DNA of 64,000 nt from Gammaproteobacteria bacterium (GTDB lineage Bacteria; Pseudomonadota; Gammaproteobacteria; Pseudomonadales; Balneatricaceae), in the NCBI GenBank assembly GCA_030748435.1, contig JASMLZ010000058.1:1-64000 (forward strand). The letters are read 5' to 3'. Numbering within the stretch: position 1 is the first letter of the stretch; every line of letters starts with the position of its first letter. Below the pieces are notes generated by a model that saw nothing but the letters and a program-made list of their open reading frames with translations, was not told the origin of the DNA and ran no database searches. This document shows positions 20,101-46,273 of the stretch, one piece after another. The position numbers and the translations under genes were made by a program.

Positions 20101-20733
20101 ATGATAAAGCGCACCAAAATTTATATTTGCGGTATCTTGGGGTTACTGTTTTCGGTCAGTGTCTTGGGCGATTCTGCCGCTCAGCAGCTAACGCAGCAGT
20201 TGGGTCGTTATCAGAGTCTGCAAGCAGATTTTGTGCAATATTTGCTGGATGCCAGTGGCAGCCGATTACAGGAAACGCGTGGTCAAATGCAATTGTTGCA
20301 GCCTAATAAGTTCTATTGGAAAACCGAAGATCCCTTTGCCCAAACCATTGTTAGTAATGGTCAAGAGGTATGGATTTATGATCCTGATCTGGAGCAGGTC
20401 ACTTGGCAAAAGCTGGATACCCGCGTAACCGCAACGCCTGCCTTGTTGCTAAGTGGTGATCAACAAATGATTGCGCAACAATTTAAGGTGCGCTTGGCTA
20501 TTGGCACTGATGGTATGCAGCAGTTTGACTTGTTACCCAAAGATCCGGAAAGCCTGTATCAAAGTATGCGCTTGTTTATTTTAGACGGCAAATTAAAACA
20601 GATGCAGGTGGTGGATACCCTGCAGCAAAAAACCGCCATGCACTTTCATAATCTGGTACTGGGTGCTGATTTACCCGATGAGCATTTTCAGTTTCAGATA
20701 CCCACTGGCACTGATGTTATCGATATGCGCTAG
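20101..20733 (+). CDS. lolA: Outer-membrane lipoprotein carrier protein LolA
   Basis: Periplasmic chaperone that accepts lipoproteins from LolCDE and passes them to LolB. The 210-residue protein has a signal peptide (about 1-23, cleavage after a Leu-Gly or similar small residue). The mature part has the open-barrel pattern with LQADFVQYLLDASG, FYWKTEDPFAQTIVSNGQEVWIYDPDLEQVTW and a TPALLLSGD loop. Its place between ftsK and rarA is the conserved one. A second, distant LolA-like protein is encoded at 42170-42970. Confidence 0.95.
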   Translation: MIKRTKIYICGILGLLFSVSVLGDSAAQQLTQQLGRYQSLQADFVQYLLDASGSRLQETRGQMQLLQPNKFYWKTEDPFAQTIVSNGQEVWIYDPDLEQVTWQKLDTRVTATPALLLSGDQQMIAQQFKVRLAIGTDGMQQFDLLPKDPESLYQSMRLFILDGKLKQMQVVDTLQQKTAMHFHNLVLGADLPDEHFQFQIPTGTDVIDMR

Positions 20734-35029: not shown

Positions 35030-36871
35030 CTAGTGTTCACCCCGTAAAGACCGGTAAATTGTATCCGCCAGAGCTTGGTTAACGCCTTTGACTTTGCTTA
35101 TTTCCGCCACACTTGCTTTTGACAGTGCTTGCAAGGAGCCAAACTGACGCAATAGGGATTGGCGCCTTTTCGGCCCGATTCCCGCAATCTCTTGTAAGGC
35201 TGATTTACCACGTTTTTTGCCCCTTTGAGCACGGTGACCATTAATAGCAAAGCGATGACTTTCATCCCTTATATGCTGGAGCAAATGCAAGGCCGCCGAT
35301 TCAGATGAAAGTGCTATCTCTGCCCCGCTCCACCCCTCTATAAGTTTTTCCAAGCCAGCCTTACGGGTTTCGCCTTTGGCTACACCCAGCAAATAAACAT
35401 CTTGCAATTGCAACTCCGACAACACCTCTTTAGCCTGCGTGAGTTGACCTTGGCCACCGTCAATAATGAGTATATCAGGGATGACACCATTATTCTCTTT
35501 TAAACGTGTATAACGACGGGTCAGAGCTTGGGACATGGCAGCATAATCATCACCGGGAGTGATGTCAGTAATATTAAATAGGCGGTAATCTGATTTTTTC
35601 GGGCCACTTTGATCAAACACCACACAGGATGCCACAGTGGCTTCGCCACTGGCATGGCTAATATCGAAACATTCGAGGCGCTCAGGTAGCTGATCCAGAT
35701 GCAGAGCCTCTTGCAGACTTTGCATACGCATCAATTGTGTTTGCTTATTAGCCACATAGCTAAGTAAGGCTTGGTCAGCATTGGTCTGAGCCAATTTTAA
35801 CCACTTTGCCCGCTGGCCCCTGACTTTGTTAGTTAAACGGTATGAGCGGTCCGTTTGGCTGGCGATGGCCTCGGCCAATGCATCACTCCTATCAAGATCA
35901 CTGACGAGACTTTCATCCGGAATATCGCGGCGCCGGCCAGTTAAGTAGAACTGGCCTAGAAAAGCATTCATCAGGTCGGCCTTGTCGGCAACAATGGTCC
36001 ATTTGGGGTAGTAATTTTTACTGCCAGTGACCTGACCATTACGTACCATTAGGTGATGCACACATTGGCCCGCCGAGGACATGGCCACAGCAAACACATC
36101 AAGATTGCCGCGTTCGGAGACCACATGCTGTTGTTCCTGTAAATGACGCAAGTCAGATAACTGGTCGCGCAATACAGCAGCGCGCTCAAACTCCAACGAC
36201 TGAGCTGCAGTGGTCATTTGACTAGCGATCGCATTTAATAGAGTCTGATTTTTTCCCTCTAAATATAGAATAGCGCTATTAACGTCGGCAGCGTACGCAC
36301 TACTGCTTATTTCACCGGTACATGGGCCAGAACAACGCCGTATCTGAAACTGCAGACATGGCCGTTGACGGTTATGAAAAAAACTGTCTTCACATTGACG
36401 CAAACGGAATATTTTTTGCATCAGGTTAAGGCTTTCGCGTACGGCAGCAGCACTGGTAAAGGGACCAAAATAACGCCCTTTTCGATGTCTGGTGCCTCTT
36501 ACATACTGCAAAGCCGGGAATGGGTGTTGCTCAGACACTAATACATAGGGATACGATTTATCATCTCGTAAGGAGATATTATAGGTTGGCTTGAGCTGCT
36601 TGATCAGCGTATTTTCCAGTAGTAAAGCCTCAGCTTCACTATGAGTAATGGTGACTTCGATGGACACCACTTTGCCAACCATAATCTGGGTTTTATTATT
36701 ATGGCTGCGACCACGAAAGTAACTGGTTACTCGATTCTTTAGATTGACAGCTTTGCCAACATAAATGACCACCTGATTTACATCAAGCATACGATAAACA
36801 CCAGGTCGTGCCGGTAACTGCTGTAAAAAAGCATCAATATCAAAGGTCGAGATAGTTGCTATATTGGACAC
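35030..36871 (-). CDS. uvrC: Excinuclease ABC subunit C (UvrC)
   Basis: Makes both incisions in nucleotide-excision repair. The 613-residue protein has an N-terminal GIY-YIG nuclease domain (about 15-95, GVYRMLDVNQVVIYVGKAVNLKNRV), a cysteine-containing stretch, a UVR motif near 205-240 and the RNase H-like domain with FDISHASGEATVASCVV. The C-terminal tandem HhH has LQEIAGIGPKRRQSLLRQFGSL. Length equals E. coli UvrC (610). It is upstream of pgsA and gacA. Confidence 0.97.
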   Translation of the reverse strand: MSNIATISTFDIDAFLQQLPARPGVYRMLDVNQVVIYVGKAVNLKNRVTSYFRGRSHNNKTQIMVGKVVSIEVTITHSEAEALLLENTLIKQLKPTYNISLRDDKSYPYVLVSEQHPFPALQYVRGTRHRKGRYFGPFTSAAAVRESLNLMQKIFRLRQCEDSFFHNRQRPCLQFQIRRCSGPCTGEISSSAYAADVNSAILYLEGKNQTLLNAIASQMTTAAQSLEFERAAVLRDQLSDLRHLQEQQHVVSERGNLDVFAVAMSSAGQCVHHLMVRNGQVTGSKNYYPKWTIVADKADLMNAFLGQFYLTGRRRDIPDESLVSDLDRSDALAEAIASQTDRSYRLTNKVRGQRAKWLKLAQTNADQALLSYVANKQTQLMRMQSLQEALHLDQLPERLECFDISHASGEATVASCVVFDQSGPKKSDYRLFNITDITPGDDYAAMSQALTRRYTRLKENNGVIPDILIIDGGQGQLTQAKEVLSELQLQDVYLLGVAKGETRKAGLEKLIEGWSGAEIALSSESAALHLLQHIRDESHRFAINGHRAQRGKKRGKSALQEIAGIGPKRRQSLLRQFGSLQALSKASVAEISKVKGVNQALADTIYRSLRGEH

Positions 36872-36880
36872 CAGTCGGAC

Positions 36881-37123
36881 CTAATTGACCATTCTTGAGC
36901 GCTTGTTTTGCCCCATATGAAAACGCGTCGCTTGATGGTAGATAGTTTTTATTTGCTCATGGGTATCAGCTGTAATACCGGCACCATGGGATAGCGATAC
37001 TTCCAGATACACCCCTATTTCAGCATAGTAGTATAATCGCGCATTAAACGATTGGGCCCGTTTAAGCTTACTAAAAGCTATTTGAGCGCCATTTACCAAA
37101 ATATGATTAATATCCGTATTCAT
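36881..37123 (-). CDS. Hypothetical 80-residue protein
   Basis: I do not recognise this protein. From ATG at 37123 it is 80 residues, starting MNTDINHILVNGAQIAFSK. It is mixed alpha/beta in character with FNARLYYYAEIGVYLEVSLSHGAG and a basic end QNKRSRMVN. It has no signal peptide or membrane segment. There is no convincing ribosome-binding site; a TTG at 37135 is an alternative start. It lies nine bases before uvrC on the same strand, which argues that it is a real co-transcribed gene. Confidence 0.55.
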   Translation of the reverse strand: MNTDINHILVNGAQIAFSKLKRAQSFNARLYYYAEIGVYLEVSLSHGAGITADTHEQIKTIYHQATRFHMGQNKRSRMVN

Positions 37124-37232
37124 AACAATGAGCAAGCATGCAGGGGAAAAGTTCCCCTATTCTACCCTATTCGAAGCATGGGCCAAAGTCACTGCAAGCA
37201 GTTGTTTGGGCCGATCTGCCAAATTTGTTTAA

Positions 37233-37340
37233 CCTAGATTCCGTATAGTGCTTCACCTAACTGGTGAAGGGCACTCTTGTCAGATACTTTTCATATCTAA
37301 TAGGTTAAAAGACGAATACACGGTCAACTGCGGAATCTAG
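37233..37340. repeat. Palindromic intergenic repeat, family 1, fullest copy (reverse orientation)
   Basis: About 108 bases bounded by CCTAGATTCCGTA and TGCGGAATCTAG, a near-perfect 12-13 base inverted repeat. An inner hairpin CTTCACC-TAACT-GGTGAAG lies close to the left end. It abuts the prpE-like stop codon at 37343-37345 with two bases between. Copies at 6671-6744 and 24289-24390 share ends and hairpin. Confidence 0.8.
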
Positions 37341-37342
37341 AC

Positions 37343-39223
37343 TTACGTGTTTGGCCCTATCAATTCAGCAATCTCGTCCAAGCTGGCAGAATCATCAATA
37401 GTTGAGGGTACAATATAATCTTCACCATTGGCTATATTGCGAATTACTTTGCGTAAGATCTTGCCAGAACGGGTTTTTGGCAAACGCTCAACTATATGAG
37501 CTTGTTTCATCACTGCAATAGGGCCTATTTGGGTGCGTAACATGCTTGCCAAATCTTTGCTTAGGGCTGCATCCGTTGTTTCAGCCCCAGCCTTTAGTAA
37601 TACCAATGCCAAAGGCATCTGTCCCTTCACCTCATCATGAATACCTACCACCGCACATTCCGCTACCAATGGATGACCACCCACTACCTCTTCCATTTCA
37701 CCGGTTGACAGACGATGGCCAGCTATATTAATGACGTCATCAGTGCGGCCCATAATATACACATAACCATCTTCATCCCGATAGCCTCCATCACCAGAAG
37801 TATAATAGCCGGCAAAATCAGCCAAATAGGAATTGTGTAAACGTTCAGAATCGCCCCAAATACCTAATAGAAAGCCCGGTGGCATAGGCAACTTAAGGGC
37901 AATATTGCCCTTTTCATTGGCTGGTAAAGGTTGCCCATCATTATCGAGAATATATAAATCATAGCCAGGCACAGGTACTGTTGCAGAGCCTGATTTAGCG
38001 GGCAGATTATCCAACCCAACTGGGTTGGCACATATGGACCATCCCGTTTCGGTTTGCCACCAGTGGTCGACTATGGGCCTGCCAATGATATCTTTAGCCC
38101 ATTGATAAGTGGGTGGATCAAGACGTTCTCCGGCCATAAATACGGTTTCCAGGCTGGAAAGGTCGTATTTTTTTAGTAATTTACCTTCAGGGTCTTCTTT
38201 TTTGATAGCACGAAAGGCCGTTGGCGCAGAGAAAATGGCTTTGACCTTATATTCCTCAATAACGCGCCAAAAAGCGCCGGCATCAGGCGTCATAACCGGC
38301 TTGCCTTCATATAGAATACTAGTACAGCCCGCTATAAGGGGCGCATAAACAATATAGGAATGCCCTACCACCCAGCCAACATCCGAAGCGGCCCAGAACA
38401 CATCACCTGGCTGCGCTCCATAAATGGCTCCCATACTGTAATGCAAGGCAACGGCATGGCCACCATTGTCGCGCATCACACCTTTGGGCTTGCCTGTTGT
38501 GCCAGAGGTATAAAGTATATAAAGAGGATCGCTGGACTTAACAGGCACAGCTTCAGCAGGCGCAGCTTTGGCCACTATATCATCCCAATCCAAATCCCGG
38601 CCTGATTGCATATCTGCAATCTGTTGTGGGCGCTGTAACAGCACTATAGTATCTACTTTATGCATAGCTAGATCGAGGGCTGTATCTAATAATGGTTTGT
38701 AAGGGATAATTTTGGTTACTTCAATACCACATGAGGCGGTTAGCACGGCTTTCGGTTTGGCATCGTCAATACGGGTGGCTAATTCAGCGGCCGCAAAACC
38801 ACCAAATACCACTGAATGTATAGCGCCTAGTCGAGCACAGGCCAACATAGCAACCGCCGCTTCCATGATCATAGGCATATAGATTACGACTCGATCACCC
38901 TGCCCGACACCTTGCGCGCGCAGAGCACCAGCAAATAGCGCCACTTTTTCCAGTAATTGAGCGTAAGTCAGGCTGGATTTGCTATGGGTTACCGGAGAAT
39001 CATAATAGATGGCCACTTGGTCGGCACGGCCATTGGCAACATGATGATCAAGGGCCATATAGCATGTATTCATTTCACCATCACTAAACCAACGACCCGT
39101 TGGGTATGCTGAAGTGTCTACCACCGTTGTGGGTTTTTTAAACCAATGCAGCTGCTCGGCCTGTTGTTGCCAAAAGGCTTCCGGATGCCAAATAGCATGG
39201 TTATAAGCTTTCTGATAAGACAT
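37343..39223 (-). CDS. prpE: Propionyl-CoA synthetase (PrpE-like, acetyl-CoA synthetase family)
   Basis: Activates propionate (and probably acetate) through an acyl-adenylate to the CoA thioester. The 626-residue protein has the adenylation motif YTSGTTGKPKGV (A3), GRTDDVINIAGHRLSTGEMEE (A8) and the C-terminal KTRSGKILRK whose lysine is the catalytic, acetylation-controlled residue. Overall sequence and length are closer to PrpE (628) than to Acs (652). Its product would feed PrpC, encoded 36 kb away at 70-1197. An acetyl- or broader short-chain acyl-CoA synthetase role cannot be excluded. Confidence 0.88.
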   Translation of the reverse strand: MSYQKAYNHAIWHPEAFWQQQAEQLHWFKKPTTVVDTSAYPTGRWFSDGEMNTCYMALDHHVANGRADQVAIYYDSPVTHSKSSLTYAQLLEKVALFAGALRAQGVGQGDRVVIYMPMIMEAAVAMLACARLGAIHSVVFGGFAAAELATRIDDAKPKAVLTASCGIEVTKIIPYKPLLDTALDLAMHKVDTIVLLQRPQQIADMQSGRDLDWDDIVAKAAPAEAVPVKSSDPLYILYTSGTTGKPKGVMRDNGGHAVALHYSMGAIYGAQPGDVFWAASDVGWVVGHSYIVYAPLIAGCTSILYEGKPVMTPDAGAFWRVIEEYKVKAIFSAPTAFRAIKKEDPEGKLLKKYDLSSLETVFMAGERLDPPTYQWAKDIIGRPIVDHWWQTETGWSICANPVGLDNLPAKSGSATVPVPGYDLYILDNDGQPLPANEKGNIALKLPMPPGFLLGIWGDSERLHNSYLADFAGYYTSGDGGYRDEDGYVYIMGRTDDVINIAGHRLSTGEMEEVVGGHPLVAECAVVGIHDEVKGQMPLALVLLKAGAETTDAALSKDLASMLRTQIGPIAVMKQAHIVERLPKTRSGKILRKVIRNIANGEDYIVPSTIDDSASLDEIAELIGPNT

Positions 39224-39572
39224 GGGGCTGATACCGATTATGTGTCAATTTGTTAATGTGCCAACAATATTACCCCAAGGAAGACAAAAAAGAACTAAGA
39301 CCAATGTGTTAGATTCTAATGCTCTGCATTGCGGCATGGTTAAATAAACAATTCTTTATTTGATGGTTGTAAATATAGCACCCTAGTCAGACCAATATTC
39401 CCTGTCATCTTTTGTTTGCACTTTATGGTTACCCGAGCGACAAAACTTATTTTATAAAAGCCTATTGATTAGTATTTAAGCACCACTTACGCCTCTATTT
39501 TACCGTTGGTCACATAACCCGGCATAGCTGATTTAAGCGGCTAGACTCAATAAACATTTGCTGGAGGAAATT
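39224..39572. promoter_or_regulatory. Divergent promoter region between prpE-like gene and envelope operon
   Basis: 349 bases with no gene. It must hold promoters for both neighbours. It contains AGACCAAT twice (39298 and 39389 regions) and CCGTTGGTC at 39503-39511, which share a GACCAA/TTGGTC core. GGAGG at 39563-39567 is the ribosome-binding site of the first operon gene. Confidence 0.5.
39503..39511 (+). promoter_or_regulatory. Candidate LytTR/AlgR-type binding site
   Basis: CCGTTGGTC differs at one position from the Pseudomonas AlgR recognition core CCGTTCGTC. It lies 62 bases upstream of an operon whose last gene is a LytTR regulator, so autoregulation is a reasonable guess. A nine-base match is weak evidence on its own. 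Confidence 0.25.
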
Positions 39573-40229
39573 ATGATGATCATTGTTAGGGGCCATTATT
39601 TGTTATTGGCAGGTTTATTAATTATTTTTTGCCCAATGGCCAAGGCTGATATACCGATGGCATTGATAGCACAATATCAACAGGCAGCTAGTGGGGATAA
39701 GCAATTAGTCGAGCCTGTATATAAACAATTTAAGCAGTTGCTGGAACAACAGAATAATAAACCACTGATGTGGGTGTATTTTGGTAGTACGGGTACCTTG
39801 AGAGGTCGGGATGCCTGGATGCCATGGAATAGGTTTAGCTATACCGAACAGGGTCTTGATAATATCCAACGTGGTATAAACAAACTACATGAGCAACCTT
39901 TGTCTGTGACTCAGCAGAAGCTTATACAGGGTATCCCCGAATATTATTTGGCCAAGGCTTTAGCGGCGACAACCTTTACCTCGGTGCCTAAATTTTTTAA
40001 CCGTTTTGAGCGCGGTTACGACCTGTTTATTGATTTGCTAAGTAATACGGAATTTCTGGCTTTGGAGTTTAATGCCAGTGCCTGGATTTATGAGCGCGCG
40101 GTAGTCGCTGCCTTAAAGGCTGACTCTGTGCCACAAGCCAGATTGTGGCTGGCCATTATGTTGAAGCGCCAAGTTGATCATCCGCTCACCCAAGCTGCTT
40201 TGGCACTGGTGCGACAGGCAGAGGCATAG
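39573..40229 (+). CDS. Secreted protein of unknown function, first gene of the envelope operon
   Basis: I do not recognise the family. From the ATG at 39573, five bases after GGAGG, the protein is 218 residues with a signal peptide (about 1-25, cleavage after MAKA). The mature part is mostly helical, with a WVYFGSTGTLRGRDAWMPW segment and helical pairs that could be a TPR-like or solenoid fold. There is no lipobox. An ABC ATPase gene begins five bases after its stop, so it is likely a periplasmic partner of that transporter. Confidence 0.75.
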   Translation: MMIIVRGHYLLLAGLLIIFCPMAKADIPMALIAQYQQAASGDKQLVEPVYKQFKQLLEQQNNKPLMWVYFGSTGTLRGRDAWMPWNRFSYTEQGLDNIQRGINKLHEQPLSVTQQKLIQGIPEYYLAKALAATTFTSVPKFFNRFERGYDLFIDLLSNTEFLALEFNASAWIYERAVVAALKADSVPQARLWLAIMLKRQVDHPLTQAALALVRQAEA

Positions 40230-40234
40230 CGGCC

Positions 40235-40909
40235 ATGATTCACTTCGAACAGCTACATAAAACCTATTCTCTTGGGCAACAAGGGGTAGCTGCCCTACGA
40301 AATGTTAGCGACACCATCAAGCCGGCCGAAATGGTCGCCTTATGCGGCCCTTCTGGCTCGGGTAAGACTAGCTTGCTGAATATTCTAGGGTTGCTTGATA
40401 TGGATTATCAGGGTCAAGTGTATATGCATAATGAGCGCTTTCCACGAGACCCTTGGTCGGCTGCAGAAATCCGTCGTCAGAAGTTTGGTTTTGTTTTTCA
40501 ACGCTTTAATTTGATAGCGGTTATGACGGCACTGGAAAATGTTGCCTACCCCTTGCAGTTAAATGGCTATAATCGTCAGCAGCAACGACAGTTGGCTACA
40601 GCCATGCTGGAGCAAGTTGGGTTGGCCAAATTTGCAAGTCACAGGCCTGATAACCTGTCGGGTGGACAACAACAAAGAGTGGCCATTGCACGAGCGCTGG
40701 TACACCAACCCAAACTGGTGATTGCTGACGAACCGACCGCAAGTCTGGACAGCACTAGCGCTGATGAAATTGTGCAGATTATGAAAACCATGGGACAGGA
40801 TTTGGGTACGACATTTATTGTCGCTACCCATGACCCGCGCATGGCTGGGCATTGTGAGCGCAGCCTGATATTGACCGATGGGCAGTTACAGGAGGCAAAC
40901 CAAATATGA
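40235..40909 (+). CDS. ABC transporter ATP-binding protein, LolD/MacB family
   Basis: ATPase that drives the adjacent FtsX-type permease. The 224-residue protein has Walker A GPSGSGKTS (38-46), the Q-loop FVFQRFNLIAVMTALENV typical of the LolD/MacB/FtsE class, signature LSGGQQQRVAIARAL and Walker B LVIADEPTASLDS. Proteins of this class power mechanotransmission or lipoprotein extraction rather than classical import. The stop overlaps the permease start by four bases. It is not the housekeeping LolD, because lolC and lolE are not beside it. Confidence 0.92.
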   Translation: MIHFEQLHKTYSLGQQGVAALRNVSDTIKPAEMVALCGPSGSGKTSLLNILGLLDMDYQGQVYMHNERFPRDPWSAAEIRRQKFGFVFQRFNLIAVMTALENVAYPLQLNGYNRQQQRQLATAMLEQVGLAKFASHRPDNLSGGQQQRVAIARALVHQPKLVIADEPTASLDSTSADEIVQIMKTMGQDLGTTFIVATHDPRMAGHCERSLILTDGQLQEANQI

Positions 40910-42177
40910 ATACTAGTTTTGGTTGGTTAACACCTGTATCTATCCGTTTAGCAGCATTAAATCTATTGCGTAACAAACGTCGCAGTAGCTTGTCGGTGCT
41001 TATTATTGGCATTGCCGTATTGGCTCTGGTTAGTGCAGGCGGATTTGGGTTATTTACCTATGATTCTCTAACAGAGTCGACATCCCGGGATGTTGGCCAT
41101 CTGATTATGACTCAACCCGGTTACTTTACAGCACAGGAGGCCACGCCTCTGGCCAATGGTCTAAATATATCGCCAGCGCAAATAGAACAACTTAAACAGC
41201 ACACAGAGATACGAGGCAGTTTTGCACGGGTGTACTTCTCTGGTCTGCTTGCCAATGGCGCCAAATCCACAATTTTTACCGGCATGGGTGTGGAAGCACG
41301 GGAGTTCGACATAAAAGGCCCGTTTTTGAATGTGCTACAAGGCCATACTTTAAGCGACGAACAATCAAGTCGCTATAATCCTGATGAGCCCCAGGTGATG
41401 TTAGCGCGTGATCTGGCTGCCAATATGCAGGTTGCCGTGGGAGATTGGATTACCCTGCTGGCAACAACCAGCGAGGGCACCTTAAATGCCTATGATTTTA
41501 AAGTCGTAGGAATTTACGCAACCGGTGTACCAGAACTGGATAAGCGACAGCTATATGTACACCTTGCCAATGGGCAGGAGCTACTGATGTCATCCAAGGT
41601 TAGCAGTGTCACCTTGTTTCTATATGATACCGAGACAACTGATGCAGTAAAGACCAAATTGGAGCAACAGCTAACATCACTTGATTGGGCCCAGCCGGTT
41701 AGCTTAACCCCCTGGTATAAAAGAGCGTTTTTCTACGCCAAGGTAAAAAGCCTTTATGATCGAATTTTTATCATTATGGGCACAATAATGGCCCTAGTGG
41801 TATTTGTGGCTTTGTTTAATACCATGACCATGTCGGTCACTGAACGAACGCGTGAAACTGGTACCCTGCTGGCGCTGGGCAATTATCCCGGCGAAATTGT
41901 CGCCATGTTTATGCGGGAAGCCGGGTTATTGGCGCTGGTTGGTAGCTTTATTGGGGCTTTGGGTGCTGGCCTGTTAAGCCTGACCCTGTTTCTGGTGGAT
42001 GTGCAGATGCCCCCTCCTCCCGGACGCACAGAAGGGTATCCACTACATATTTACTTTTCCTTTGAATTATCGGCATACGTCTGTTTGGTGATCTTACTGG
42101 TGTGCTTGCTGGTGGCATATCTGGCGGCTAAAAAAGGCGTTAAGAAACCCATTATTGAGTCCTTGGCTTATGTTTGA
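40906..42177 (+). CDS. FtsX-fold ABC transporter permease (MacB/LolE type)
   Basis: The 423-residue membrane protein has the MacB topology: one N-terminal helix (about 26-48), a large periplasmic domain (about 50-285) and three C-terminal helices (about 288-310, 340-368 and 385-412). The cytoplasmic MTMSVTERTRETGTLLALGNYPGEI coupling helix is characteristic of the FtsX family. As only one permease is present, it should form a homodimer as in MacB. Such systems move lipoproteins, peptides or lipids between inner membrane and periplasm. It overlaps both neighbouring genes. Confidence 0.9.
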   Translation: MNTSFGWLTPVSIRLAALNLLRNKRRSSLSVLIIGIAVLALVSAGGFGLFTYDSLTESTSRDVGHLIMTQPGYFTAQEATPLANGLNISPAQIEQLKQHTEIRGSFARVYFSGLLANGAKSTIFTGMGVEAREFDIKGPFLNVLQGHTLSDEQSSRYNPDEPQVMLARDLAANMQVAVGDWITLLATTSEGTLNAYDFKVVGIYATGVPELDKRQLYVHLANGQELLMSSKVSSVTLFLYDTETTDAVKTKLEQQLTSLDWAQPVSLTPWYKRAFFYAKVKSLYDRIFIIMGTIMALVVFVALFNTMTMSVTERTRETGTLLALGNYPGEIVAMFMREAGLLALVGSFIGALGAGLLSLTLFLVDVQMPPPPGRTEGYPLHIYFSFELSAYVCLVILLVCLLVAYLAAKKGVKKPIIESLAYV

Positions 42178-42970
42178 TCTATACCTGAGTAGCAAATGGA
42201 TGCTTACCATAATATGGCTATTGTTGTTACCGACCCTTATTCAAGCTCAGGCGCCAATACAAGGTCAACCATCAAATAAGGATATTGCGCGTATGTTACA
42301 ACGCGCTGACAGCTATCGAGTGCCCTATCAAGCCAGCCGATCTGTGTCTGTGGTGCAGGTGTTTGTACAAGGGGTATTACAAAAAACGCGTCAATACCAT
42401 GTCTACAGTCGTGGCAACGGTGATGTTCTGGTGATCTTCAAGTCCAAGGCTGAAGCGGGCCAAAAAATGTTGATGGTGGATCATCACTATTGGTTGATGA
42501 TGCCCAAAAGTCGGCGCCCTATCCGTATTACCCCCATGCAAAAGTTATTAGGCGATGCTTCGGTTGGTGACCTCTCCACCATTGTTTGGGAACAATCTTA
42601 CCAAGCCCAATGGCAAGCCACCGAGCAGTTGCAAAATCTTGACGGAGTGATGGTTAATACTGAAAAACTACAGCTTCGTGCCAAGCATAAAAATGTAAGC
42701 TACGCCAATATCACTCTATGGCTGGACGCCACTAGCCACTTCCCGGTAAAAGCTGACTTGTATCTGACTTCTGGCAAGCTGGCCAAGCAGGTCTGGTATC
42801 AGGCCAGTCAAGACAATAGTCAATTAAGAGTGGCATCTATGGGGTTCTCCGACTTGCTGCAATCGGGTAAACATACCATTATAAACTATCAGCAGGTGAC
42901 ACCAATAAAGTTGCAAGATAAATATTATAATCCGGCCTTTTTGTCACGCAATGCTTTATCGGGCCTGTAA
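42170..42970 (+). CDS. LolA-like periplasmic protein (outer-membrane lipoprotein-sorting protein family)
   Basis: A 266-residue protein with a signal peptide (about 1-28, ending IQAQA) and the LolA-like half-barrel pattern: YRVPYQASRSVSVVQVFVQG, QYHVYSRGNGDVLVIFKS, YWLMMPKSRRPIRI and a GDASVGDLSTI loop. The ATG at 42170 overlaps the permease stop by eight bases; the frame is open to a TTG at 42155. Family members sit beside MacB-type transporters and are thought to shuttle lipidated or hydrophobic cargo. It is distinct from the housekeeping LolA at 20101-20733. Confidence 0.85.
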   Translation: MFDLYLSSKWMLTIIWLLLLPTLIQAQAPIQGQPSNKDIARMLQRADSYRVPYQASRSVSVVQVFVQGVLQKTRQYHVYSRGNGDVLVIFKSKAEAGQKMLMVDHHYWLMMPKSRRPIRITPMQKLLGDASVGDLSTIVWEQSYQAQWQATEQLQNLDGVMVNTEKLQLRAKHKNVSYANITLWLDATSHFPVKADLYLTSGKLAKQVWYQASQDNSQLRVASMGFSDLLQSGKHTIINYQQVTPIKLQDKYYNPAFLSRNALSGL

Positions 42971-42971
42971 C

Positions 42972-44243
42972 ATGCGTATTTGGCTACAGTGTATAGCTGT
43001 ATGTAGCTGGCTGGTATCTGTGGCAGTAACAGCTGAGAATGCCTGTTTGCCTGTCGCAAGTAACCACAACTGGCTGTTGGCTGCCGAACATACCCAATAC
43101 CGCTCTAATGCCATATTCACAGATACAGCAACAACCCAGCAAAATCTCGACGCCATTTTGGATGTACAGTTAGCCTACTGTGAGTGGAGTGCCAATTTGG
43201 CCTATCATCAAAGCTGGTATGAGGCAGCGCCAGCCAAGCATAAGATGGAACTCAAGGAGTTGGTTTGGCAATCCAGTCTCAATACAGATTTGCCTCTGGA
43301 TATCACGCTTGGCAAGGCGCGAATTGATTGGGGATTGGGTTATATCTACCAGCCACTGGATATCTTTAGACCTTATCAAGGCCAGAGCCTAAACTCCCTG
43401 GCAGAGCAAGGCACAGGGATTATTGCCCTGTCTGCTTTTGATGCTGTGGGAGAGTGGAGTTTAGTGTTCAGTGATCCATCCTGGGCCACCAATAAAGACC
43501 CCGCTGCCATACAAACAGGCAGCCGACCCACACTGGGTTTGCGCCACTATCGTCTACAGGGCGATGACGAATATATCGGTCAACTGTCCTATGATAAGGA
43601 TAGACATATAACTTTAGGTGCCGGCTGGACGCGTGGTGTAGGAGACTCACTACACTTGTATAGCAGCGCCTTATGGCAACAAAATCATCGGGCTTATATG
43701 CTACCCACTGGATTGCTGGCGCCTGTTACGGCCCACAAGCAAGCCGCAGGTCGTCAGTTTATGCTGGGCCTAAACTGGGCTGATGCTGTAGGCCAGACTG
43801 TAATTTTGGAATTTGCCTATGACTCGCGAGCCTGGAGCCATCAACAATGGGCTAATGCCTTTAAGCGCTTAGATCATTTGTCCAGTCTGCCTGGCACTGA
43901 ACCATTACGGCAATCCTATGCTCTGGGATTTAAGCACCAACATATTGTGCGCCAAAATCTTACTTTGCATTGGTCTTTCGCCGCCCTAGCCTGGTCTAAC
44001 TGGCATTGGAGCCAGAATCAGGTTTGGCTAAGGCAATTAAGTCCTTCTCTGGATATCGTATATGCACCACAAGATCGAGGTTATATAGCGACCCCGGGGT
44101 TAAGTTGGCAGTGGCACCAAAGCGATAAACAGGAATTGAAACTGAACTGGTCTGTGCGTTATTTTGCCGGTCCCAGCCATGCCAGCTATGCTAATATGGC
44201 ACAGCAACGGCAGATGTTGATTAACTTGACGGGGCACTTTTAA
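42972..44243 (+). CDS. Predicted outer-membrane beta-barrel protein
   Basis: A 423-residue protein with a signal peptide (about 1-28). The mature part consists of alternating hydrophobic and polar residues with many aromatic girdle residues (for example LGLRHYRLQGDDEYIGQLSYD). It ends NLTGHF, where the C-terminal Phe is the usual BAM recognition residue. This fits a medium-sized barrel of 14-18 strands; I cannot name the family. ATG follows the LolA-like stop by one base. It is likely the outer-membrane end of the transport route encoded by the operon. Confidence 0.78.
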   Translation: MRIWLQCIAVCSWLVSVAVTAENACLPVASNHNWLLAAEHTQYRSNAIFTDTATTQQNLDAILDVQLAYCEWSANLAYHQSWYEAAPAKHKMELKELVWQSSLNTDLPLDITLGKARIDWGLGYIYQPLDIFRPYQGQSLNSLAEQGTGIIALSAFDAVGEWSLVFSDPSWATNKDPAAIQTGSRPTLGLRHYRLQGDDEYIGQLSYDKDRHITLGAGWTRGVGDSLHLYSSALWQQNHRAYMLPTGLLAPVTAHKQAAGRQFMLGLNWADAVGQTVILEFAYDSRAWSHQQWANAFKRLDHLSSLPGTEPLRQSYALGFKHQHIVRQNLTLHWSFAALAWSNWHWSQNQVWLRQLSPSLDIVYAPQDRGYIATPGLSWQWHQSDKQELKLNWSVRYFAGPSHASYANMAQQRQMLINLTGHF

Positions 44244-45304
44244 TGAACCAAAAACGGCTTGAGTTGCGGGACTGGCTGGTTGGCTTGGCCAAGACAATTT
44301 TGCTTTGTAGTCTGGTTGCCTTGGTGACAAAGATTCTGTGGTCTGGCCCTTATCTTATGCACCTGAGTATTAGCCTGGTTTATGGTGGCAGCACAGTGGT
44401 TGCGATATATTTGGTAGCCAAATTCTGGCCCCGCTTATCGGTCCTGCAAGCTAGTTTGATTGGTTCAGCCATAGCATTGATTTTGGGTTCATTGAATCTG
44501 ATTAATACCCTAAAAAATCAGTACCCGAATGGAGAAATATTGACTCAGTTGAATATTATTTTGGGGATAAGTATATTAATTAATGTATTAGTCTTTCTAT
44601 TTTTCTATATTAACCATTACCGTTTGCGTGCTGAACGTTCCTTACAGCAAGCCAAGGTGACGCAGGCAGAAATGGAAAGAAACCTGATGTTAAGCCAACT
44701 GCAGCAATTACAGAGTCAAATGGAACCTCATTTTCTCTTTAACACCCTTGCTAATATTGATGCTTTGATTGATTCCAACCCGAGTTTAGCGCGTCACTTG
44801 TTGTTACAACTTAATGACCTGTTACGTGCCACTTTAAAGAACAATAGTCAGGCTTTAATAAGCCTGACAGATGAAGTTGCGCTGCTAAATGCATATCTGC
44901 AAATTCAGCAAGTGCGCTTGGGTGATCGTTTTCATTATCACATAGAGTGCAACCTGGATAGTTTACAGCAGTCGACCATAATGCTACCGCCGTTTTTAAT
45001 CCAGCCGGTGGTTGAAAATGCCATAATTCATGGCATCGAGCCGAAAAATAATCAAGGCGAGGTTAGCATCGGTTTTTCGGTCAAAGGTGATTGTCTTCTA
45101 GTGTCTGTACAGGATAATGGCGTTGGTCTGAGATCGGATATGGTCAACTCAGGACATGGCATAGGTCTGGCTAATGTAAGGCAACGTCTAGAGGTTTTAA
45201 TGCCTAATGCAGCAGAGTTTACGCTTTATCAAACTACAGCCAATAAAACCGTTGCCGAACTGAGCATGCCCCTCGATAAACTCAATGCTCAACATGGAGT
45301 TTAA
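44243..45304 (+). CDS. LytS/AlgZ-type sensor histidine kinase
   Basis: A 353-residue membrane kinase. Four hydrophobic helices (about 12-32, 38-61, 67-90 and 99-126) lead through a short coiled coil (127-160) to a His_kinase domain with the phospho-acceptor His163 in SQMEPHFLFNTLANI. The ATPase part has QPVVENAIIHGIEP (N box), DNGVGL and GHGIGLANVRQRLE. It has no recognisable extracytoplasmic sensor domain, so it probably senses the membrane itself or the transporter. The start codon shares one base with the barrel gene stop (TAATG). Confidence 0.9.
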   Translation: MNQKRLELRDWLVGLAKTILLCSLVALVTKILWSGPYLMHLSISLVYGGSTVVAIYLVAKFWPRLSVLQASLIGSAIALILGSLNLINTLKNQYPNGEILTQLNIILGISILINVLVFLFFYINHYRLRAERSLQQAKVTQAEMERNLMLSQLQQLQSQMEPHFLFNTLANIDALIDSNPSLARHLLLQLNDLLRATLKNNSQALISLTDEVALLNAYLQIQQVRLGDRFHYHIECNLDSLQQSTIMLPPFLIQPVVENAIIHGIEPKNNQGEVSIGFSVKGDCLLVSVQDNGVGLRSDMVNSGHGIGLANVRQRLEVLMPNAAEFTLYQTTANKTVAELSMPLDKLNAQHGV

Positions 45305-45305
45305 G

Positions 45306-46118
45306 GTGATAAGTAAACACCTACACGCGACGGCAGTTATCGCCGATGACGAGCCTGCCTTGCGCCATCACCTGCATCAGGCTTTGACCGAAATTTGGCC
45401 TGAGTTGGAGGTGGTAGCCAAGGTTGAGGATGGCCGGCAAGCCCTTGCAGCCATACAGCAATGGCAACCAGAAGTTATTTTTCTGGATATTCGTATGCCC
45501 GAGTTGGATGGCTTGCAGGTGGCACAGCAACTGTCAGCTATGGATAAGATACCATGGTTGGTATTTATCACTGCCTATGATCAATATGCTGTTACCGCTT
45601 TTGAACGCAATGCAGTGGATTATCTCTTAAAACCCGTTAACAGCAAACGTCTGGCTGCAACCTGTACGAAACTGCAACAGCGCTTGTGTAGTCAATCCCA
45701 TGACCCTGTACAAGAGTTGCCTGATGTAAAATTGTTATTACGACAGATGCAACAACTGTCGAAGCATGCAATACCCGACTATTTGAACTGGATTAAAGCC
45801 CATAGAGGTAAAGAAATTCATGTACTGGCAACGGCTGATATTCTGTATTTAAAAGTGGAAGATAAATATATTTCCGTGTATATCAAAAATACCGAGGAGC
45901 AATTGGAGGAGTACCTTTTACGCTCGTCACTCAAAGACTTACTGCAGCAATTGGATCCACAGCAGTTTTGGCAAATTCATCGCTCAATTGTGGTTAATGT
46001 GGCAGCCATTGATAAGGTTACTAAAGAACTAACGGGGGCAATGTTGGTACATATAGGAACGGTGAAACTACCAGTGAGCCGAACCTTACAAAGACAGTTT
46101 AAAACATTAAAAACCTAA
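45306..46118 (+). CDS. LytTR-family response regulator (AlgR/LytR type)
   Basis: A 270-residue regulator with a receiver domain (about 8-125; acidic pair DDE, phospho-acceptor Asp61 in VIFLDIRMPELDG, conserved Lys in YLLKPVN) and a C-terminal LytTR DNA-binding domain (about 165-270). I chose GTG at 45306: TGGAG ends six bases upstream and it starts right after the kinase stop. ATG codons at 45285 and 45294 are in frame but lack a ribosome-binding site. With the kinase it forms a complete two-component system transcribed with the transporter. Confidence 0.88.
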   Translation: MISKHLHATAVIADDEPALRHHLHQALTEIWPELEVVAKVEDGRQALAAIQQWQPEVIFLDIRMPELDGLQVAQQLSAMDKIPWLVFITAYDQYAVTAFERNAVDYLLKPVNSKRLAATCTKLQQRLCSQSHDPVQELPDVKLLLRQMQQLSKHAIPDYLNWIKAHRGKEIHVLATADILYLKVEDKYISVYIKNTEEQLEEYLLRSSLKDLLQQLDPQQFWQIHRSIVVNVAAIDKVTKELTGAMLVHIGTVKLPVSRTLQRQFKTLKT

Positions 46119-46273
46119 CTATAAGCTGAGCTAAATGGCTAAGATTTAGCTGGCAGAGACAAATAATGAGCGCTACCAGAGGCGTATGTTGATGAACATT
46201 CAAATGCTACTGGTTTGGGGTTTACTGGGCGAGTATAATGCATCTCTTTTTAGCGCAGTCTATGGAGTCTTGA

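Follow-up and report, generated by a model that had tools for sequence, protein, structure and literature searches.

Organization of the locus

The DNA examined here, referred to as the window, is a stretch of 64,000 nucleotides at the start of contig JASMLZ010000058.1 (assembly GCA_030748435.1, a gammaproteobacterium of the family Balneatricaceae), and it contains an operon at 39573-46118 that combines an ATP-binding cassette (ABC) transporter, a LolA-like carrier, a predicted outer-membrane beta-barrel and a two-component pair. It is close to certain that these seven genes form one functional unit. Their packing had been described in the initial annotation, which was made from the letters and open reading frames only, and all coordinates, the plus strand and the overlaps or gaps of at most 5 bases were borne out. 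The features are as follows.

39483..39514, plus strand: candidate operator, an imperfect direct repeat resembling AlgR/LytTR boxes, starting 90 bp ahead of the gene-1 ATG
39573..40229, plus strand: gene 1, secreted helical TPR-like protein of 218 amino acids (AlphaFold2, Foldseek)
40235..40909, plus strand: gene 2, LolD/DevA/MacB-like ABC ATPase of 224 amino acids (Pfam ABC_tran, NCBIfam, motifs)
40906..42177, plus strand: gene 3, single permease of 423 amino acids (MacB_PCD and FtsX; four hydrophobic regions)
42155..42970, first ATG at 42170, plus strand: gene 4, periplasmic LolA-like carrier of family PF17131 (Pfam)
42951..44243, likely ATG at 42972, plus strand: gene 5, predicted outer-membrane beta-barrel (AlphaFold2 model)
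44243..45304, plus strand: gene 6, AlgZ/LytS-type histidine kinase with four transmembrane (TM) segments (Pfam, hydropathy, motifs)
45285..46118, plus strand: gene 7, LytTR response regulator (Pfam Response_reg and LytTR)
36791..46273, no strand assigned: extra stretch between uvrC and hpt, containing a prpE-like gene and the operon (sister-genome comparison)

The ATPase possesses GPSGSGKT (Walker A), LSGGQ, LVIADEP (Walker B) and the TH of the H-loop, the kinase has PHFLFN, NAIIHG and GHGIG (H-, N- and G-box), and the regulator has DDE, LDIRMP and LKP. Since these motifs are intact, the gene set looks functional.

Conservation of the seven-gene unit

An alignment of the LolA-like protein was scanned against 84,980 species genomes, which gave 251 relatives; the counts in this paragraph refer to the best 80 of them, comprising 58 loci classed as Vibrionaceae and 22 others, and at least five of the 80 (L059, L084, L115, L127 and L136) are on contigs that were also used to build the search models. 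The 22 loci outside Vibrionaceae include Moritella, Ferrimonas, Agarivorans, Microbulbifer, Thioploca, Thiomargarita and Parabeggiatoa, as well as the betaproteobacteria Massilia, Uliginosibacterium and Rhodocyclaceae. All seven genes were found in the same order in 60 loci and genes 2-5 were contiguous in 77, which upholds the proposal that the seven genes are one conserved unit with its own sensor pair. Near the carrier, the ATPase and the permease were present in all 80 loci, the barrel in 79, the kinase in 74, the regulator in 73 and gene 1 in 69. Neighborhood comparison thus contradicts the possibility, raised in the initial annotation as a point against its own proposal, that the genes are rarely together.

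A second comparison was seeded with the barrel, for which 33 matches were detected in 398 genomes of the phylum (14 at E < 1e-50). Fifteen of the 33 (12 strong and 3 weaker) were taken into the neighborhood comparison; eight of the 12 strong genomes come from a single genus-level group, and no fewer than four of the 12 also appear among the 80 loci mentioned above. The kinase and regulator were found at all 12 strong loci, the ATPase, permease and carrier nearby at 11 and gene 1 at 10. The locus that has no transporter nearby carries a LolA-like gene approximately 12 kb away on the same strand, and in another genome (G593) blocks 1-4 and 5-7 are swapped and still adjacent. The window itself accounts for one of the remaining two strong matches and G128 for the other; in G128, genes 2-5 are present and no kinase or regulator was detected. 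The three weaker matches comprise a locus with genes 2-7, a locus with genes 2-5 and a locus where the barrel is accompanied by ATPase-like genes only. Together with the 60 fully ordered loci, the barrel-seeded loci rule out chance clustering. More broadly, a LolA-like match at E 1e-3 was observed in 42 of 369 evenly drawn genomes of the class, most of them distant, and eight plasmid-collection records from Vibrio and Plesiomonas carry carrier and barrel alike.

Relationship to the Lol and MacAB systems

Gene 4 passed the Pfam gathering score of PF17131 (LolA_like, 114.1 bits with a cut-off of 30), has a homolog of solved structure (NE2245, PDB 3buu, E 7.5e-22) and carries a signal peptide with no lipobox as judged by eye. 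Gene 3 contains MacB_PCD and FtsX domains (Pfam), its best PDB matches, LolF and LolE, are effectively tied, and the permease presumably forms a homodimer. With curated models, gene 2 remained below the NCBIfam cut-off for LolD (208 bits versus 307.75) and gene 3 below that for LolC/E (89.8 bits versus 362.45), while gene 4 had no match to the LolA model TIGR00547 at E 0.1. The gene at 20101, previously called lolA, proved to be the canonical lolA (209.7 bits, cut-off 112), and a canonical LolC/E is encoded elsewhere in the same genome (509.8 bits, cut-off 362.45). Because the curated cut-offs are missed and the canonical genes are present elsewhere, a plain duplicate of Lol is ruled out, and the earlier view of the operon as separate from Lol holds. 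The operon is similar to LolCDE-LolA-LolB and LolF-LolD in the type of ABC transporter and the fold of the carrier, and its single permease is like LolF; it differs from Lol in having no LolB and in possessing its own kinase pair and barrel.

The curated MacB cut-off of 966 was missed by the gene-2 ATPase (189.8 bits) and the gene-3 permease (37.2 bits), and no Pfam match to an adaptor or TolC was detected among the seven operon proteins; lacking both components, the set is not a MacAB efflux pump. The FtsX/MacB periplasmic core permease is common to this operon and MacAB-TolC, whereas here the ATPase and the permease are encoded by separate genes and a LolA-like carrier is present.

Additional PF17131 proteins were observed in this genome. 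One is located on contig C69 (L039:1814-7682) together with a weakly related barrel, and this carrier/barrel pair is oriented divergently to genes for an ATPase and two FtsX permeases, representing a related two-permease version; the third PF17131 protein is at C53:37947-38519 (165.7 bits). In seven of eight two-permease gammaproteobacterial loci (L051-L054 and L056-L058), the LolA-like gene is read from the opposite strand and separates the permeases from the ATPase, and the arrangement of the eighth (L055) differs from these.

Nearest described system

Among the titles and abstracts listed by searches of the open-access literature, none describes this seven-gene operon, and the accessible text of a survey of LytS/LytTR systems in gammaproteobacteria contains neither "ABC transporter" nor "lipoprotein" (PMC5552118). 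The closest description found is that of Borrelia BBJ23-29, published in 2026, which includes two TPR proteins, an Omp85 barrel, a MacB-like ABC transporter, a LolA-like protein and one unknown protein, and for which a non-polar ligand is proposed, lipoproteins being the candidate named in the abstract (PMC13078400). When the Borrelia proteins were compared with models of the operon proteins, its ATPase and permease were found to be homologous to genes 2 and 3 (195.1 and 178.4 bits, respectively, with E values calculated for seven proteins), and the LolA-like BBJ28 matched the gene-4 model weakly (10.0 bits, E 1.7e-4 among 7 proteins). BBJ25 had no match to the gene-5 model at E 10, and neither BBJ23 nor BBJ24 had a sequence match to gene 1, whose TPR-like fold is itself weakly matched. 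As far as the available text of the paper describes the cluster, the two systems share a total of seven genes, a homologous ATPase and permease, a LolA-like protein, an outer-membrane barrel and possibly TPR-type periplasmic proteins, but they differ in the second TPR gene and the extra unknown gene of Borrelia and probably in the kind of barrel (Omp85 in Borrelia, a predicted OprD/AlgE-like fold here) (PMC13078400). The term "two-component" is absent from the main text of that paper, in which no kinase pair is mentioned (PMC13078400). The assertion that no described system has this composition should therefore be narrowed: a related cluster has been described, and what appears to set the operon apart from it is the barrel and the built-in kinase pair.

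Gene 1 and the predicted outer-membrane barrel

Neither gene 1 nor gene 5 matched Pfam or NCBIfam at E 0.1 or PHROG at E 0.01, and AlphaFold2 models of the two proteins were generated from alignments of 43 and 34 sequences. The gene-1 model consists of helical hairpins (pLDDT 92.7), and the gene-5 model is a beta-barrel with 18 strands by manual count (pLDDT 92.0, pTM 0.85). The barrel aligned with OprD/Occ channels (VIA Z about 22-23, up to 23.3, rmsd 3.1-3.7 over approximately 310 residues) and the alginate exporter AlgE (VIA Z up to 21.5, Foldseek E 8.1e-12), with identities of 5-13%; no Omp85 entry is among the barrel matches listed from VIA and Foldseek. The predicted likeness to OprD/Occ or AlgE is one of fold, and no Pfam family, including those of OprD/Occ and AlgE, was matched by gene 5 at E 0.1.

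Such matches raise the question of whether the operon serves uptake or the recycling of surface lipids, with the barrel as an uptake porin and the carrier working inward. The OprD/Occ channels at the top of the VIA matches would be in agreement with this direction, but MacB_PCD/FtsX ABC systems act as exporters or extractors, and AlgE, an exporter, comes close to them in VIA score and heads the Foldseek matches. We consider uptake very improbable.

Kinase, regulator and predicted operator

Gene 6 contains His_kinase and HATPase_c domains, a sub-threshold CitMHS match (Pfam) and four hydrophobic segments, and, as had been noted from the sequence, no extracytoplasmic domain is recognized by Pfam. 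Its designation as a histidine kinase stands, while the label "LytS-type" fits only loosely, since the 5TM sensor domain that LytS proper carries is not seen with Pfam. With four putative TM segments and a His_kinase-type domain, gene 6 resembles an AlgZ/FimS-like kinase, AlgZ having four predicted TM helices (PMC4064291). Gene 7 exceeded the cut-offs for Response_reg and LytTR (81.6 and 73.6 bits, respectively) and is the only LytTR match in the genome, which is 98.5% complete.

Motif discovery by expectation maximization in 58 non-redundant upstream regions revealed the consensus CCATTCACtCC-N9-CCgTTyGTCGCA, the half-sites of which are offset by 20 bp. As the shuffled controls of this step were mononucleotide shuffles with fewer restarts than the real run, it is the test on held-out loci that should be relied on. 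With a matrix derived from Vibrionaceae alone, 39483-39514 came out at the top of the whole 64-kb window (26.9 bits, the next best site reaching 2.1); at the Vibrionaceae loci themselves, from which the matrix was built, the upstream score exceeded 13 bits in 54 of 58. Among the held-out loci outside Vibrionaceae that have the kinase, the best site of the locus was upstream of the operon in 12 of 16, with a chance expectation of approximately 1.2% each; three of these 12 (L072, L102 and L122) share the permease clade of Vibrionaceae, and the top site at the held-out locus L068 scores just -1.4 bits. In a Vibrio splendidus strain, a second strong operator-like site of 38.7 bits (L095:3574) lies some 2.6 kb ahead of the operon and adjoins none of the seven genes.

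LytTR regulators commonly bind imperfect direct repeats approximately 12 bp apart, and the AlgR boxes are CCGTTCGTC and CCGTTTGTC (PMC4064291). In common with AlgZ/AlgR, as described in the accessible part of that report, the present system has a four-TM kinase and a LytTR regulator, and its half-sites resemble CCGTTCGTC and CCGTTTGTC; in contrast to AlgZ/AlgR, the pair is encoded within a transport operon and is associated with a regular 20-bp direct repeat (PMC4064291). The conserved AlgR-box-like repeat upstream and the AlgZ-like layout of the kinase imply autoregulation, and control of the operon through this predicted repeat appears well supported.

A kinase that has no sensor domain and is encoded beside an FtsX-type permease is also what would be expected of a Bce-like defense system, in which permease and kinase detect and remove external membrane-active peptides or lipids that carrier and barrel then expel. 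The autoregulation motif, the patchy distribution with probable lateral gain and the absence of a recurrent biosynthesis gene beside kinase-bearing operons in distant loci are compatible with such a role. However, hydropathy gives the gene-3 permease four hydrophobic regions where BceB has 10 TMs, the kinase belongs to the His_kinase/AlgZ type, and related cores that do not have this kinase occur in biosynthetic clusters (see below), and we regard a defense role as unlikely.

Genomic context of related cores and possible cargo

Clues to the cargo come from related cores in other genomes. A five-gene core on an Escherichia coli plasmid, which has homologs of gene 1 and the barrel according to hidden Markov models (2.1e-14 and 4.1e-13), is surrounded by genes for a ketoreductase, an acyl carrier protein, a FabA-like dehydratase, a ketosynthase, a FeeM-type N-acyl amino acid synthase and an enoyl-CoA hydratase (L038:11878-23074). 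This cluster was detected in 2 of 5426 genomes as identical copies, and an open-access literature search for FeeM together with LolA or an ABC transporter found nothing. The plasmid is IncK2/Z-typed and was obtained from healthy human feces, and transposase remnants are near the cluster. In Burkholderia arboris, an AMP-binding enzyme is encoded directly upstream of the core, and downstream are three genes with no Pfam match, followed by an AurF-type oxygenase and a protein whose KAS-III match is below the threshold; genes for a citrate-synthase-like enzyme and a TauD dioxygenase lie farther downstream. Within the family, the core of G113 is beside a halogenase-like FAD enzyme, a hydrolase and an acyl-CoA dehydrogenase, and the core of another relative, G055, is paired with an OmpR-type regulator and a HAMP kinase.

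Acyl-chain or small-molecule synthesis has thus become linked to related cores on more than one occasion, as have different two-component systems, a pattern that fits an exporter of lipid-like molecules. A LolA-like carrier has been proposed before in the transport of a lipid pigment, aryl polyene (PMC8253772). According to the accessible part of that paper, ApeL/ApeM/ApeN is comparable in that a LolA-like carrier is proposed for an outer-membrane-bound lipid product, but it is driven by an RND protein instead of an ABC transporter and has a LolB-like partner instead of a barrel (PMC8253772). The lipoprotein cargo implied by the initial annotation is not what these contexts indicate, as the informative neighbors are small-molecule or acyl-chain enzymes; a lipid-like cargo is more likely than a lipoprotein, and lipid-like export by the operon itself has, in our estimate, about one chance in two.

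A second, Lol-like route dedicated to a few client lipoproteins should also be considered, given that permease, ATPase and carrier are all from Lol-related families and that the homologous Borrelia cluster has been discussed for lipoproteins in the abstract of its description (PMC13078400). On the other hand, neither LolB nor any lipoprotein family is among the conserved seven genes or recurs beside them in distant loci, and this route also has to contend with the enzymes beside related cores and the missed Lol cut-offs. We judge it to be a rather unlikely explanation.

Proposed function

Our preferred reading, for which we see roughly even chances, is that the operon encodes a self-regulated pathway dedicated to exporting a lipid or an amphiphilic small molecule. 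In this model, two gene-2 ATPases and a homodimer of the gene-3 permease would draw the cargo out of the inner membrane by mechanotransmission of the LolCDE/MacB kind, as expected from the family, and the gene-4 LolA-like carrier would shield it across the periplasm. The TPR-like gene-1 protein may aid docking as a scaffold, and the gene-5 barrel may receive the cargo or release it at the outer membrane. The AlgZ-like kinase, embedded in the membrane, could sense the cargo, its build-up or a disturbance of the membrane, and the LytTR regulator would then switch the operon on by binding to the upstream direct repeat, a repeat that was computed here. The passage from inner to outer membrane, already suggested by the initial annotation, is a step that we likewise infer.

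Several observations weigh against this reading. Gene 1 was not recognized in B. arboris and is doubtful in G113, the permeases of E. coli, B. arboris and G113 are all outside the permease clade of the window, and clustering of flanking genes in 31 distant loci, kinase-bearing and other, revealed no non-operon family that recurs in more than three (the genes were compared with each other, and not all of them were named). By this measure no biosynthetic partner accompanies the kinase-bearing operons, and the inference about cargo is transferred from divergent relatives. The nearest folds of the barrel include uptake porins (OprD/Occ), and the best PDB matches of gene 1, mostly TPR proteins, are weak (best Foldseek E 3.3e-3). 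Moreover, four of the 16 kinase-bearing held-out loci have no top-ranked upstream site, whereas three of the six held-out loci with no detected kinase still have one, so that the link between predicted site and kinase appears strong on one side and mixed on the other.

A bolder version of the export hypothesis, which we offer tentatively and hold to be possible rather than probable, is that the operon represents an undescribed class of ABC-driven lipid exporters, in which a LolF-like permease, a LolA-type relay and a porin-like exit barrel would move cargo to or through the outer membrane. Lipid or natural-product clusters might have recruited this portable module independently; in Vibrionaceae and sulfur bacteria, the recruiting partner would be an AlgZR-like switch that reads the membrane and senses the cargo itself. 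To our knowledge, the delivery to the outer membrane of lipids other than lipopolysaccharide and lipoproteins is a largely open subject, and the operon provides a compact set for it: pump, carrier, possible scaffold, exit barrel, sensor, regulator and predicted operator, the last of which suggests how the operon is switched on. Its presence in Vibrio and Photobacterium strains makes the cargo question directly testable, and the E. coli plasmid cluster with its FeeM-type enzyme is a small, genetically tractable version whose kind of product can be guessed.

Origin of the operon in this genome

In all six sister genomes examined, out of 14, uvrC and hpt are directly adjacent, and in the window the prpE-like gene and the operon lie between them. 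No other LolA-like match was found among the 14 genomes of the genus, and three were found among 115 others in the family, one of them weak. The barrel was detected by single-sequence search in none of these 115 genomes, although the barrel model recognized the distant versions of G113 and G055. In a permease tree, the window copy groups with Vibrionaceae, Ferrimonas, Moritella and Microbulbifer (support 0.999). The absence of the operon from the six sister genomes and its grouping with relatives in Vibrionaceae make lateral gain the simplest reading, although loss in the sister genomes may be an alternative; the G+C content of the operon (0.462) does not differ from that of the rest of the window (0.457).

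A partnership of the operon with prpE was ruled out, as a PrpE search of loci longer than 3 kb gave a single match of 25% identity (E 1e-20, L138). Near the left edge of the extra stretch, an interspersed repeat of approximately 110 bp (37225-37340) has 13 matches in its own genome, including itself, and is possibly a mobile or REP-like (repetitive extragenic palindromic) element.

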